Source: Leptolyngbya sp. 'hensonii' (lineage in GTDB: Bacteria > Cyanobacteriota > Cyanobacteriia > GCF-001939115). From it: 49,776 nt of DNA. Where the stretch lies: the NCBI RefSeq assembly GCF_001939115.1, contig NZ_MQTZ01000059.1, forward strand, positions 1 to 49,776. The letters are read 5' to 3'. The position numbers and the translations under genes are program-made. Position 1 is the first letter of the stretch; every line of letters starts with the position of its first letter. Under the pieces are notes generated by a model. That model searched no databases, was not told the origin of the DNA, and was given only the letters and a program-made list of their open reading frames with translations. Below are positions 45,687 through 49,776 of the stretch, piece after piece.

Positions 45687-45896
45687 TCAGGCTTCCCGCA
45701 ACACATACCCGACCCCCCGCACTGTCTGGATCAAGCGTTTTTCACCTTCGTTTTCTACCTTCAAGCGCAGGTATCGAATGTACACTTCAATCACATTCGA
45801 TTCCCCCATAAAGTCGTAACCCCAGACATTCTCCAGAATTTGCTCCCGAGTCATGACTTCTCGGGGATGTTCCATGAGATACAGCAATTTCCAGCC
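45687..45896 (-). pseudogene. OmpR-family response regulator, C-terminal remnant cut by IS
   Basis: Only the end of the winged-helix domain remains: [20 protein letters not shown], then [20 protein letters not shown] and the [12 protein letters not shown] terminus. It reads open from the stop at 45687 up to the IS630 left end, with codons for GWKLL just before. The receiver domain and recognition entry are missing. The sequence on the far side of the IS is unrelated, so this is not a simple insertion. The [11 protein letters not shown] stretch recalls NblR-like regulators, but that is a weak guess. Confidence 0.88.
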
Positions 45897-45898
45897 TA

Positions 45899-46896
45899 GT
45901 GAGGCGTATTTGATAGAATGATTTGTATGTTTACTTCATGCTCAATCAAGTGCAACCATACTCACTAGATCTTAGACAGAAAATTGTTGATGCATATCTT
46001 GAAGGGAATACGTCGCAACGTCAAATCGCTATACAATTTCGAGTTGCTTATAGTTTCGTGCGAAAGTTAATCAAACAACATCGGGAAACAGGTGAGATTG
46101 TCCCCAAACAACGAACTGTGCAAACACCGACCAAACTAAGTGTTGAGCAACTGGAGATTTTAGAGACGATTGTTGAATCGAATAACGACGCGACGTTGGC
46201 AGAGTTATGTAACTTGTTAGAACAGAGGGTCGGTGTCCGAGTTGGCGTTTCGACAATGTTTCGAATGCTAGAGAAGCTGAACTTAACGCTTAAAAAAAAC
46301 TCTGCATCCCGACGAAAAGGAAACTGAGCGAGTGCAAACTAAACGAGTCGAATTTTGGCAACTGGTTCGAGGATTTCTAGCTCAAAATCTAATCTTCATT
46401 GATGAATCAGGAGTGGACTTAGCCTTGACCCGACTCTGGGCGCGTGCACCGAAAGGCAGACGAGCACATGGCAAGCGTCCAAGCCAGCGAGGGAAACGAG
46501 TCTCGATTCTAGGGGCGATTAGTCTGCGGGAGGTCGTGACTTACTGCAATCTCATGGGGTCAACTGATGGACTGACCTTTGAAGCCTTTATTTCCCAGAA
46601 ACTTGTGCCTAAGTTATGGAAAGGTGCCTGTGTCATCCTGGATAACTGCTCTATTCATCTGGGTGAAGACGTTAGAAAGTTGATTGAGGATGCAGGAGCC
46701 AAGCTAATTTTCCTACCCCCTTACTCACCAGACTTTTCGCCTATCGAGAATTGCTTTTCAAAGATTAAGAGCATTCTGCGTTCGATTAAGGCACGCAGTT
46801 ATCCAGAACTTGCCAAAGCTATTGATGAAGCTTTCTCCCAGGTGTCATCGAGCGACTTAAGGAACTGGTTCTCTCATTGCTGTTACTGTGCCTCAC
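45899..46896 (+). mobile_element. IS630-type insertion sequence (about 998 bp)
   Basis: The ends start GTGAGGC on both sides as inverted repeats, with weaker matches further in (A at +10, AATGA at +19 to +23). The left end is flanked by TA, the expected IS630 target; the right flank reads CA, so the duplication is not intact. It contains a two-frame transposase. The element lies at the border between chromosome and the accessory island and cuts a response-regulator gene. Confidence 0.82.
45938..46327 (+). CDS. IS630 transposase, N-terminal frame (HTH)
   Basis: ATG at 45938 gives about 129 residues. The helix-turn-helix region (YSLDLRQKIVDAYLEGNTSQ, then RQIAIQFRVAYSFVRKLIKQ) is typical of IS630 transposases and binds the ends. 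It continues to LEKLNLTLKK and a run of eight A at 46292-46299, then goes out of frame. The second frame picks up the rest as TLHPDEKETERVQ. Confidence 0.88.
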   Translation: MLNQVQPYSLDLRQKIVDAYLEGNTSQRQIAIQFRVAYSFVRKLIKQHRETGEIVPKQRTVQTPTKLSVEQLEILETIVESNNDATLAELCNLLEQRVGVRVGVSTMFRMLEKLNLTLKKNSASRRKGN

Positions 46897-46904
46897 CAGC
46901 ATAA
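46332..46904 (+). CDS. IS630 transposase, C-terminal frame (DDE domain)
   Basis: The frame is open upstream to the A-run, where TLHPDEKETERVQTKRVEF joins the N-terminal part. It has the catalytic DDE triad: FIDESGVDL, VILDNCSIHLG and YSPDFSPIENCFSKIK. The GTG at 46332 is only the first start-like codon in this frame. A +1 shift or loss of one A at the A8 run would fuse both frames, so it could be programmed slippage or a mutation. The TAA stop lies six bases beyond the apparent IS end. Confidence 0.85.
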   Translation: MQTKRVEFWQLVRGFLAQNLIFIDESGVDLALTRLWARAPKGRRAHGKRPSQRGKRVSILGAISLREVVTYCNLMGSTDGLTFEAFISQKLVPKLWKGACVILDNCSIHLGEDVRKLIEDAGAKLIFLPPYSPDFSPIENCFSKIKSILRSIKARSYPELAKAIDEAFSQVSSSDLRNWFSHCCYCASPA

Positions 46905-46913
46905 AAAACGCTG

Positions 46914-46919
46914 TATAAT
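46914..46919 (+). promoter_or_regulatory. Possible -10 element (TATAAT) before R-M genes
   Basis: A perfect TATAAT lies 44 bases upstream of the endonuclease ATG, just outside the IS end. No good -35 hexamer is found at 16-18 bases. It may drive the restriction-modification genes. Confidence 0.35.
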
Positions 46920-46963
46920 GAAATGTTCCTACACTTAAAGCTATCGGTTTACATTCAGCTTAT

Positions 46964-47608
46964 ATGACTATTTTTGACCGTTCCAAACATGTGTACGTTT
47001 CTCCTGACTTTGACGAAGTCGTAAAAGATACGATACGCTTTTTTAACGGTACACCTGTACATCCAATTCCCGTTCCAAAGCGTTTTCATGGAACAGGAAT
47101 TTATGCGCTATATTGCATTGCAAAATCTGGCATATATTCAAGATTTAATTTGGTCAATAGAACTGCATTCCACATGCCTATTTACGTTGGGAAAGCAGTT
47201 CCGAAAGGTTGGCGTCAAGCTAGACAGCTAATACCCGTAAATACCCAAAGCTACGAGCTAAACAATCGAATTAACGAACATAGCCACAGCATAGATCTAG
47301 CAGAAAACTTAGATAGATCTGATTTTTTCTGCCGCTTCATGATTCTCGAAGGCAAAGAGAGTGATTTAATTGGTACTGTAGAAGCTGCACTTATTAGAAA
47401 ATACCAACCGATTTGGAACACTCTGATCGATGGATTCGGCAATCATGATCCCGGAAAAGGCAGATACGCGCAAGCTAAATCAGATTGGGATGTTTGTCAT
47501 CCAGGGCGACCCTGGGCTATAAAATGTCAAGGGGTTCACGGTACTAAAGAAGAGCTACTTCAAAGCATTGAAAATTTCATGGCTAGATTGAGTGGAGAAG
47601 ATGCCTAG
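46964..47608 (+). CDS. Eco29kI-like GIY-YIG restriction endonuclease
   Basis: 214 residues. The GIY-YIG core is GTGIYALYC (Tyr47) and PIYVGKAVPKGWRQAR (YVG at 74-76). Catalytic-type residues follow as Arg102 and His106 in RINEHSHSI, Glu140 in GTVEAALIRKYQ and Asn152 in PIWN. This spacing equals that of Eco29kI (as I recall Tyr49, Arg104, His108, Glu142, Asn154). Eco29kI cuts CCGCGG; whether this enzyme does is inferred. The gene is AT-rich and has no GCGATCGC, unlike neighbours, a sign of recent transfer. It overlaps the methyltransferase gene by 8 bases. Confidence 0.88.
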   Translation: MTIFDRSKHVYVSPDFDEVVKDTIRFFNGTPVHPIPVPKRFHGTGIYALYCIAKSGIYSRFNLVNRTAFHMPIYVGKAVPKGWRQARQLIPVNTQSYELNNRINEHSHSIDLAENLDRSDFFCRFMILEGKESDLIGTVEAALIRKYQPIWNTLIDGFGNHDPGKGRYAQAKSDWDVCHPGRPWAIKCQGVHGTKEELLQSIENFMARLSGEDA

Positions 47609-48758
47609 ACTGTCTTGCTTAGAGCTGTTTACAGGTGCAGGAGGACTAGCCAAAGGCTTAGAGATGGCTGGAATTCAGCACAAAGCCTTTGTTGAAATAA
47701 ATAATGATGCTTGTCTAACATTGGCTTACAATTACGGCGATCAGTTTATCCACAATACAGATATCCGTACATTTCAATTTGATCAGTTTGGGCATGTCAA
47801 TATAATCTCAGGCGGTCCTCCATGCCAGCCATTTTCAATGGGAGGAAAGCATAAGGGAAATGCAGATCAACGAGATATGTTTCCTTATGCCTGTAAGGCG
47901 ATAAGTGTTTGTACGCCCAAAGCCTTTATTTTTGAGAACGTTAAGGGCATTTTACGCAAATCATTTAGCAACTATTTCGAGTACATAATATTAAGGCTAA
48001 GATATCCTGAGGTTTCTCTTAGAGATTCAGAATGCTGGAAAGATCATTTAGCAAGACTCGAAAAAATTCATACTTCAGGAAAGTATAAAGGGGTCAAATA
48101 CAATGTTGTTTTTCGTTTACTAGATGCTGCAAATTATGGGATTCCCCAACGTCGTGAACGAGTTTTTATTGTTGGAATCAGAGAGGATTTGAATATAGAG
48201 TGGTCTTTCCCTCAAGAATCCCATTCTTTTGATTCCTTGCTATGGTCACAGTTTGTCAGTTTTAATTACTGGGAAAGACATGGAGTTAAACCATCAGGAT
48301 TTGATTGTCTAGATAAAAGGACTCAACAGCGGATTGAGCAATTGATGCAGCAGCCTACTTTGTTTTCTCCTCCCTTAAAGCCATGGAAAACAGTTCGAGA
48401 TCAAATTGGAGAACTACCAGAACCTGATACTGACGGTAGTTTTGATACTGAGCATATTTTAAGGGAAGGTGCCAGATCGTATCCTGGTCATACTGGAAGC
48501 TATATAGATATGCCGTCCAAAACCCTCAAAGCAGGAGATCACGGTGTCCCTGGAGGGGAAAATATGATTCGATATCAGGATGGTCGAATACGTTATTACA
48601 CTACATTTGAAGCTAAACGAATTCAAACCTTTCCTAATAATTATAGGATTTTGGGGTCATGGACAGAATCTATGAGGCAAATTGGTAATGCGGTGCCAGT
48701 AGAGCTAAGTTATTGCATAGCGAGTTCTTTGTCCCAGGCTATAAGCTGTGAGTCTTAG
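47601..48758 (+). CDS. DNA (cytosine-5)-methyltransferase
   Basis: ATG at 47601 gives 385 residues (MPRLSCLELFTGAGGLAKGL); the GTG three codons before is less likely. Motif I LFTGAGGLAKG binds AdoMet, motif IV GGPPCQPFSMGG holds the catalytic Cys, motif VI FIFENVKGIL, motif VIII QRRERVFIVG, and motif X QIGNAVPVEL. It is the partner of the upstream endonuclease and protects host sites. R precedes M with overlap, as in Eco29kI. AT-rich like the endonuclease. The stop is one base before an attC-like repeat. Confidence 0.93.
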   Translation: MPRLSCLELFTGAGGLAKGLEMAGIQHKAFVEINNDACLTLAYNYGDQFIHNTDIRTFQFDQFGHVNIISGGPPCQPFSMGGKHKGNADQRDMFPYACKAISVCTPKAFIFENVKGILRKSFSNYFEYIILRLRYPEVSLRDSECWKDHLARLEKIHTSGKYKGVKYNVVFRLLDAANYGIPQRRERVFIVGIREDLNIEWSFPQESHSFDSLLWSQFVSFNYWERHGVKPSGFDCLDKRTQQRIEQLMQQPTLFSPPLKPWKTVRDQIGELPEPDTDGSFDTEHILREGARSYPGHTGSYIDMPSKTLKAGDHGVPGGENMIRYQDGRIRYYTTFEAKRIQTFPNNYRILGSWTESMRQIGNAVPVELSYCIASSLSQAISCES

Positions 48759-48759
48759 A

Positions 48760-48847
48760 CAGCTAACACTGCGTTGGTGCGGACGGTAAAGAGGTTATCG
48801 GTGAGAATTAGAGGTTATCTGCCGCCGCACAACTTTGACGTTAGCTG
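48760..48847 (+). repeat. attC-like imperfect inverted repeat (integron cassette site)
   Basis: 88 bp. The outer arms CAGCTAAC (48760-48767) and GTTAGCTG (48840-48847) are exact complements. The inner arms GTTGGTGCGGACGG and CCGCCGCACAAC pair with one unpaired extra G on the left, the asymmetry seen in attC L boxes. Between them lies a ~36-base loop. The GTTAGCT end is one base off the attC core consensus GTTRRRY. It directly follows the methyltransferase stop, as attC sites follow cassette genes. Confidence 0.72.
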
Positions 48848-48937
48848 GCTTCGTTTTTGGGCTGGGACGGTACAGCGAGGTTATTGGTTAGAAGTGGGTG
48901 TTAAACTTGACTCAGAAACCCTAGGAGAGCGATCGCT

Positions 48938-49135
48938 GTGGCTTCTATCACAATTGATCTTTCAGACAGCCAATTCCAAAAGTTACAAGATTTAGCAAGA
49001 GTGCATGGCATTGCGACTGAAGTGCTTTTGAAGGCAAGCCTGGAGGATTGGCTAAATGTACAAAAAGGCGATTTTGTTAATGCAGCCGATTATGTGTTGA
49101 GGAAAAACACTGAACTATATAGGCGTTTGGCATGA
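48938..49135 (+). CDS. Antitoxin of a Doc-type toxin-antitoxin pair
   Basis: GTG start with AGGAG 9 bases upstream gives 65 residues (MASITIDLSDSQFQKLQDLA). It reads as a short helical antitoxin: a ribbon-like N terminus followed by HGIATEVLLKASLEDWLNV and a C-terminal tail FVNAADYVLRKNTELYRRLA that would bind the toxin. I do not match it to a classic Phd. Its TGA overlaps the toxin ATG (ATGA). A GCGATCGC lies just before the start. Confidence 0.8.
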   Translation: MASITIDLSDSQFQKLQDLARVHGIATEVLLKASLEDWLNVQKGDFVNAADYVLRKNTELYRRLA

Positions 49136-49518
49136 TTCGCTATTTGACCCTAATTGAGGTACTAGAGCTACATCGCAAAATTCTTGCACAATCCGGTGGA
49201 GCATTGGGTATCCGAGATATGGGTTTGTTGGAATCAGCGATTGCCCAACCTCGAATGTCGTTTGGCGGAGAGGATCTGTATCCAAGTTTGCTGGAGAAAG
49301 CAGCAGCGTTAGGGTTTTCGATCATCATGAATCATCCATTTGTAGATGGAAATAAACGTACAGGTCATGCTGCGACAGAGACTTTTCTTGTTTTGAATGG
49401 GTTAGAAATTAACGCCTCTGTGGATGAACAAGAGCGTATGGTGTTGGCGATCGCATCAGGCAAACAAGAACGTCAGGTATTTATAGAATGGTTACAGCAG
49501 AACACAGCCGCCAGCTAA
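49132..49518 (+). CDS. Fic/Doc family toxin (death-on-curing)
   Basis: 128 residues. The Fic/Doc motif HPFVDGNKRTGHAA starts at His68, as in Doc toxins (HxFxD/GNKR). Doc of phage P1 phosphorylates elongation factor EF-Tu and stops translation. The N-terminal IEVLELHRKILAQSGGALGI region and short length also fit Doc. It is translationally coupled to the antitoxin. The TAA stop is inside a CAGCTAA that matches the outer attC arm upstream, and the intron begins at its last base. Confidence 0.92.
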   Translation: MIRYLTLIEVLELHRKILAQSGGALGIRDMGLLESAIAQPRMSFGGEDLYPSLLEKAAALGFSIIMNHPFVDGNKRTGHAATETFLVLNGLEINASVDEQERMVLAIASGKQERQVFIEWLQQNTAAS

Positions 49519-49776
49519 TCGGGTCGAGGAGAGCATTTAACTCTCCCCTCCCACACCACCTGCCATGCGGCTCCGCAACAGGCGGTTCATGAAGACGCGC
49601 AAACAACATTAATGGCTAAACATAGCCTTGAGCTTGCATCCAAAGGTTGCGAATTGAAAGCAATCCCTGTTGCTCCAACCACTCGTTAGTCATTCCCGTT
49701 TGTGTCGCCAACGTCTTTGACAAACGCCAGTAGCCTTTGCGACTAATGCCTGTCAAAATCGCTTGCCGTTTACTGG
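49518..49776 (-). mobile_element. Group II intron, 3' part (continues past window end)
   Basis: On the minus strand the order is: maturase C terminus, stop, hairpin of domain V type (ACCGCCTG ... CAGGTGGT with TGCGG/CCGCA inner stem, 49555-49586), a domain VI-like hairpin GGAGAG-TTAAATG-CTCTCC, then CGACCCGAT as the likely 3' end at 49518. The 5' part lies beyond the window. It is antisense to the cassette genes. The class is not determined. Confidence 0.8.
49616..49776 (-). CDS. Group II intron reverse transcriptase/maturase, C-terminal end (partial)
   Basis: The last 52 residues are visible, reading ISRKGYWRLSKTLATQTGMT and then NEWLEQQGLLSIRNLWMQAQ to the end GYV. This is the typical C-terminal maturase end of cyanobacterial group II intron proteins. 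The gene continues past the right edge of the window. The family is recognised by pattern only. Confidence 0.8.
   Translation of the reverse strand, partial: SKRQAILTGISRKGYWRLSKTLATQTGMTNEWLEQQGLLSIRNLWMQAQGYV

Follow-up and report, generated by a model that had tools for sequence, protein, structure and literature searches.

A probable integron attC site behind an Eco29kI-type restriction-modification gene pair in Leptolyngbya sp. 'hensonii'

Directly behind a restriction-modification (R-M) gene pair of the cyanobacterium Leptolyngbya sp. 'hensonii' stands an 88-bp imperfect palindrome, which raises the question of whether this pair is a gene cassette of an integron. The window, that is, the whole stretch of DNA analysed, comprises the 49,776 nucleotides of contig NZ_MQTZ01000059.1 (assembly GCF_001939115.1). 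An initial annotation had taken the palindrome for a cassette end, the R-M genes for a mobile cassette and the right box for the start of a following cassette with a Doc pair. The two R-M genes (Table 1) are predicted to form an Eco29kI-type system, an RE_Eco29kI endonuclease being paired with a C5 methyltransferase, and would protect against phage. By analogy with Eco29kI, methylation at CCGCGG would be expected.

Table 1. Features of the window and related features at other loci. C, contigs of the same genome; L, loci.
Feature	Position	Strand	Remarks
IS630-type element	45880..46915	+	terminal repeats TACAGC...GCTGTA; split transposase frames
R-M cassette 5' remnant (TAATGAAATGTTCC...)	46916..46963	+	90% match to L184 cassette
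Eco29kI-family type II restriction endonuclease (GIY-YIG)	46964..47608	+	PF09517, 234 bits
C5-cytosine DNA methyltransferase, partner of the endonuclease	47592..48758	+	PF00145, 192 bits
Probable attC site of R-M cassette	48760..48847	+	rule-based scan, covariance models, single-strand DNA fold
R'' box CAGCTAAC	48760-48767	+	
L'' box GTTGGTGCGG (GTTgGTGCGG)	48773-48782	+	G extrahelical; A at 48783 as second bulged base
L' box CCGCACAAC	48825-48833	+	
R' box GTTAGCTG	48840-48847	+	inferred crossover G48840 / T48841
Conserved cassette 5' leader	48848..48897	+	common to cassettes of this genome and other cyanobacteria
Putative antitoxin of Doc pair, 65 aa	48938..49135	+	82% identical to Calothrix NIES-3974 copy
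Doc-type (Fic-fold) toxin	49132..49518	+	stop codon inside R'' of own attC
R'' box (GCCAGCTAA|c) of Doc cassette attC	49510..49518	+	remainder displaced by intron
Group II intron, 3' end	49519..49776	-	bottom strand of attC at R'' (TTGT/T; boundary +/-1 nt)
Near-identical integrase genes	C35:33591-34529, C61:38438-39376, C36:607-1545; also C45:3-143		attI regions near-identical
Leader examples	L108:314-377, L114:2268-2337, L084:1870-1940, L137:9781-9854 and others		
Repeats abutting attC	C57:232, C40:165, C38:25499, C70:12833; C15:217, C49:320, C68:16180, C53:6538; C29:39631, C37:1440		at R': C10, C15, C49, C58
ORF-less group II intron	L166 (C40):2230-3020		Rfam RF00029, 59.5 bits in L166
ORF-less group II intron, further sites	C35 and C36; C38, C24, C62		behind attI in C35 and C36

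Read on the + strand, positions 48760-48847 have the order CAGCTAAC-ACTGC-GTTgGTGCGG-a-CGG...CCG-CCGCACAAC-TTTGAC-GTTAGCTG. The outer boxes, R'' and R', form eight complementary pairs out of eight, and the inner boxes, L'' and L', nine out of nine, with a single unpaired G on the left side. Three more pairs (CGG/CCG) follow beyond the bulged A. The methyltransferase stop codon ends at 48758, one base before the site; the palindrome, box layout, unpaired base and spacing had been placed exactly in the initial annotation. The outer boxes are RYYYAAC-like and GTTRRRY-like, as in attC sites, the GTTAGCT of R' having one mismatch to GTTRRRY, likewise seen at many sites in this genome. The extrahelical bases are G and A on the top strand, hence T and C on the bottom strand, where they lie on one side of the hairpin about 6 nt apart. 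Efficient class 1 sites have this spacing, and an attC class of this kind is reported to be efficiently excised and recombined (PMC3053210).

How often such an arrangement arises by chance was assessed with a rule-based scan that combines R''/R', L''/L' and one bulged base. The site scores 17. Both strands of 1.99 Mb of first-order Markov sequence yielded not one score of 17 or above, and a single score of 16 or above. Folded as single-stranded DNA, the site has z = -2.95 (bottom strand) and -3.09 (top strand), and the plain folding energy of a wider stretch around it is unremarkable (z = -1.6). It is thus from box arrangement and recurrence, not from folding energy, that the attC identity is deduced. 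At gathering thresholds, Rfam matched a tRNA alone in the window and no attC.

Recurrence was first of all found within the genome. More than 12 sites related to 48760-48847 were recovered by a DNA search of all 77 contigs (5.94 Mb). Among 14 aligned sites, 14 of the 20 pairs show changes on both sides, there are 34 double changes (14 in shuffles), and 86.6% of the pairing cells are paired (74.6% in shuffles); this covariation is lost once the partners are slid by 1-3 columns. Moreover, 12 of the 14 sites have G as their extrahelical base, and 13 have A as the bulged one. A covariance model, R1, built from these 14 own-genome sites, the window site included, finds 55 sites in the whole genome at E <= 0.01, 14 of them being the training set; the window site, itself one of the training sites, ranks second with 92.8 bits. 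Grouped at 4 kb, the attC-like sites of the genome fall into 29 clusters of one to six sites, many near contig ends. R1 also matches the attC of the class 1 integron cassette aadA1 (45.4 bits, E 7e-11). At 81 integrase loci of other genomes (80 from public genomes and one plasmid), all 88 R1 matches lie on the strand opposite intI, the arrangement usual for integrons. A further model, R2, was made from 33 attCs of other cyanobacterial genomes and the aadA1 attC, the window site being left out of the training. Its sole match in the window is 48760-48847, with both ends identical (67.7 bits, E 2.5e-14). With canonical boxes, a covariance match and the random control in agreement, the cassette end proposed in the initial annotation is upheld.

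Because the palindrome follows a stop codon directly and can fold, it might instead be an intrinsic terminator, or another RNA hairpin of the R-M operon, that merely resembles an attC. However, a long central loop is unpaired, a T run is absent and the unpaired bases are conserved. The same structure recurs with covarying boxes behind dozens of unrelated genes, its relatives in other genomes stand on the strand opposite intI, and blocks of homology stop at the boxes. We therefore regard a terminator as very improbable.

Two further observations concern the attC family of this genome. A short attC of 71 nt, GGCCCAACCCATC...GTTGGGCT (C28:64058-64128), is unlike the genome's other attCs and may derive from a foreign cassette. 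In addition, the repeats ggtcagaattatcccgtctcCCCATAAA, attagttcacgcccgtgccgGGCGTACACA, ttatccttgacccaagttttTACACAGTC and GTTACCAAatccaattttcttaag abut attCs exactly at R'' or R', as if they were insertion sequences targeting these boxes.

An attC calls for an integrase. The genome holds three full-length integron integrases, scoring 439-460 bits, about 175-195 bits above the curated TIGR02249 cut-off of 265, as well as additional fragments. One of the three carries an in-frame stop (TGA). The C36 integrase matches over its entire length (439 bits), is 47% identical to IntI1 and retains the C-terminal H-x2-R-H...H...Y signature of tyrosine recombinases. The TIGR02249 search found no intI on the window contig, which counts against the attC reading. 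An attI ending in ...TCCGTCTACTAATA|GTT adjoins all three integrases (C35, C36, C61: ...GGAAAAATTCCGTCTACTAATA|GTT), and attIs of a similar kind are present in other cyanobacteria. At L137 and L108, a single cassette start occurs both after attI and after attC, the outcome expected from recombination at G|TT. Integrases above the cut-off were found in 23 of 386 cyanobacterial species genomes and 17 of 140 genera. Thus, each kind of follow-up named in the initial annotation had a positive result: an attC covariance match (R2), many further copies adjoining cassettes, and intI genes, here and in related genomes. As a separate observation, the Kovacikia minuta plasmid pB (NZ_CP083584.1, L079; 58 kb) carries an integron integrase 89% identical to the genome's own, accompanied by attCs and a MobV relaxase gene.

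The ordinary integron mechanism is established for IntI1 and VchIntIA. Transposed to this locus, the bottom strand of the attC would fold into a hairpin, which IntI would recognise through the extrahelical bases and cut between the G and the TT of R'; the circular cassette would then enter behind attI or between cassettes. By analogy, the integrases of this genome are presumed to act on 48760-48847.

If the R-M pair is a cassette, it should be found elsewhere with cassette boundaries. Relatives of the methyltransferase were searched in 390 genomes of the class, the order as a search range comprising this genome only, and a match at E <= 1e-70 was obtained in 18 of them, this one counted. In eight other genomes (L184-L188, L190-L192), the stop codon of a methyltransferase 74-95% identical to the window copy is followed after 1-13 nt by an attC of the same strand. 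In seven of these eight (L184-L188, L190, L191), attI and GTT stand in front of the endonuclease, as judged by visual comparison with the attI set. L189, a ninth genome, has an attC in front of the endonuclease, and the attC behind is decayed. G|TT junctions, in different arrays, thus bound the R-M pair on both sides elsewhere, and likewise the Doc pair in Calothrix. Compared by sequence, the R-M pair is a cassette that recurs in integrons of other cyanobacterial genera. The relatives' cassettes have a conserved TATAAT box before the endonuclease, and at L188 and L191 integrase sequence is also present, running divergently to the R-M pair. As a raw count without a baseline, seven of the eight loci with a readable left side have the cassette in first place after attI.

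R-M pairs are able to move alone, and related Eco29kI pairs reside on small plasmids; the pair could accordingly have travelled as an R-M unit of its own and come to lie next to an attC with which it has nothing to do. Such a coincidence is hardly credible, since the same pair stands directly before an attC in eight other genomes and since the R'' matches the cassette start behind attI. At L184 the cassette start GTTAGCTG and its R'' CAGCTAAC are the window's own pair of boxes, and at L188 GTTAGCAGTC goes with GACTGCTAAC; such matching is expected of one circular cassette. Returning to the cassette reading, the exchange may in part be recent. The endonuclease is 97% and the methyltransferase 95% identical to those of G428, a genome of another family, whereas PurF is 76% identical, which points to recent transfer. 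PurF served as the yardstick in place of PFK, for which no match was found in G428. In other carriers the excess over PurF is smaller or nil (G435: 76% vs 73%).

The right box was expected to open a further cassette. The same antitoxin-Doc pair is found within an integron array of Calothrix sp. NIES-3974, with 82% nucleotide identity; the 65-aa antitoxin had no family match. The block of homology runs from the R' region of the preceding attC, where the inferred crossover G48840|T48841 also falls, to exactly GCCAGCTAA. Past this box, an attC (CAAGTCATTGGAGCGG) follows in Calothrix and a group II intron in the window. The attC in front of the Doc cassette differs between the two organisms. Within the window, the cassette start GTTAGCTGGC at 48840 is complementary to the cassette's own R'' GCCAGCTAA, as expected for one circular cassette. 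This box-to-box comparison identifies the Doc pair as the cassette that follows the R-M cassette and begins with R' at 48840, in line with the initial annotation.

Between R' and the Doc genes lies a stretch shared with other cassettes. Directly after R', 22 cassettes of this genome open with related sequence of about 60 bp (GCTTnGTnnTnGGTTGGGGCAGTACnTnAAnnTTATCTGTTnGTATTCAA); among unrelated cassettes, a large minority have this leader after R', and the first cassette behind attI begins with it as well. With a profile made from the 22 cassettes, the leader was recovered in other genera too, either at R' or after attI. In this genome the profile gives 31 matches at E <= 0.1, mostly at cassette starts; because the model was trained on cassette starts, these counts speak of specificity and are not an unbiased discovery. 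In three of the matches, an ORF-less group II intron comes between R' and the leader. This intron, of about 800 bp and on the top strand, was observed exactly between R' (GTTRRRY) and the leader in several cassettes, and also immediately after attI. A hairpin within the leader was considered and rejected, as RNAalifold, applied to 26 sequences, gave not a single conserved pair. Another type of leader, GCTCCGCACAGGGTCTTTTACACT..., is present at L138, L086, L121, L080, L115 and L094. That the leader is a functional element, namely an expression signal, a second recombination-related element or a relic of cassette birth, is conceivable at somewhat less than an even chance. If so, cassettes would be two-ended units, unlike the textbook cassette of an ORF plus an attC; the role of the leader is open to direct testing.

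Is the window copy still mobile? An IS630-type element, present in about 15 near-identical copies in the genome, is inserted at the TA of the TATAAT box in the promoter region of the R-M cassette, whose left end is cut off. The counterpart of 46916-46963 at L184 lies after attI and the TATAAT box. A reading of the stretch between IS630 and the endonuclease as a remnant of the cassette leader was discarded: about 8% of random stretches do equally well in a position-weight test, and L184 shows the R-M cassette's own upstream region there. A search for the missing left end elsewhere in the genome gave nothing convincing. To the left of the IS630 (window 45687-45879), an OmpR-type response regulator is represented by its C-terminal part. 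Its N-terminal part abuts an IS630 end on contig C42 (C42:1-379, with the regulator after 379); the halves rejoin as ...ELLK|YLMEHP... around TA. Since the other half of the regulator adjoins IS630 on C42, it is probable that the contig is a chimera formed through the repeated IS630, or that two IS630 copies have recombined. The sequence left of 45880 may therefore be unlinked to the cassettes.

On the right, about 258 bp of a group II intron are present before it runs off the contig. The uninterrupted Calothrix site reads GCCAGCTAACAAGTC, and the window GCCAGCTAA|TCGGGT. For group IIC-attC introns, the reported insertion point is R'' (TTGT/T) on the bottom strand of an attC (PMC7923331). The window intron occupies this same position, opposite to cassette transcription, a likeness confined to the insertion site; Rfam assigns related copies to generic group II. 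Related intron 3' ends at C37, C70 and C53 likewise sit at R''-like boxes. The window copy thus lacks one cassette boundary on each side: on either reading of the contig join, the R-M cassette is without its left boundary and the Doc attC is interrupted, so that the pair is probably not mobile now. Of the mobile cassette proposed in the initial annotation, the cassette stands, the relatives being flanked by attI or attC at the left end and by attC at the right end, but the R-M/Doc copy in the window is probably immobile at present.

It may be asked whether the attC itself is a decayed relic, of true ancestry but recombined by no integrase in the cell any more. The array is a fragment with its left end lost at IS630, its Doc attC split by the intron and no intI in cis, and several integrase copies are broken. 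Yet the site is intact, with perfect boxes and with the bottom-strand T and C about 6 nt apart, as in the efficient class (PMC3053210), and at least one integrase frame is open. We consider a relic unlikely, though a serious contender.

Taken together, 48760-48847 is almost certainly the attC of an Eco29kI-type R-M integron cassette, in a copy that would be a stranded two-cassette remnant. The R-M cassette would have lost its left end at IS630, and the attC behind Doc would have been interrupted by an attC-targeting group II intron. Observations on three points carry this explanation: the anatomy of the site, the integrases and attIs of the genome, and the G|TT boundaries of both cassettes elsewhere. 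Against it stand the missing left boundary of the R-M cassette and the contig join at IS630, which conflicts with C42.

Earlier surveys already record integrons in Cyanobacteria (PMC2426708, PMC8618304), and the survey of Boucher et al., as cited in PMC2426708, covers their chromosomal integrons. A Cyanobacteria attC model was built in PMC8352920, which implies that cyanobacterial attCs have already been collected in bulk. The view of the initial annotation that cyanobacterial cassettes are poorly described is therefore to be qualified. In the open-licence literature, we found no description of the spread of this Eco29kI-type R-M cassette among cyanobacteria, and no paper on an R-M cassette, a cassette leader or the attI consensus in these organisms. 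As in the surveyed chromosomal integrons of Cyanobacteria, the integrase belongs to TIGR02249, attI lies beside intI, and attC arrays are transcribed away from intI; in contrast, the attCs here are spread over many short clusters and there are several integrase copies. The class 1 aadA1 (ant(3'')-Ia) attC shares the R''/L''/L'/R' order, the box sequences and the extrahelical bases, but its central loop is shorter (62 nt in total, against 88 nt for the window site).

The matching boundaries in eight other genomes show that a type II R-M defence module moves as an integron cassette among cyanobacterial families, so that integrons would carry phage defence outside proteobacteria as well. The attI, attC and cassette sequences provide a ready set with which integron activity can be tested in cyanobacteria. 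Xanthomonas integrons are known to contain R-M and toxin-antitoxin cassettes, and those of Vibrio defence cassettes (PMC12444791); the 2025 papers, as cited there, treat defence and R-M cassettes in the integrons of both. Leptolyngbya sp. 'hensonii' and its relatives resemble these integrons in having R-M, other defence and toxin-antitoxin genes as cassettes. They differ in belonging to another phylum, in that one R-M cassette can be traced over several cyanobacterial families, and in that this cassette mostly occupies the place next to attI and has a conserved TATAAT box of its own.
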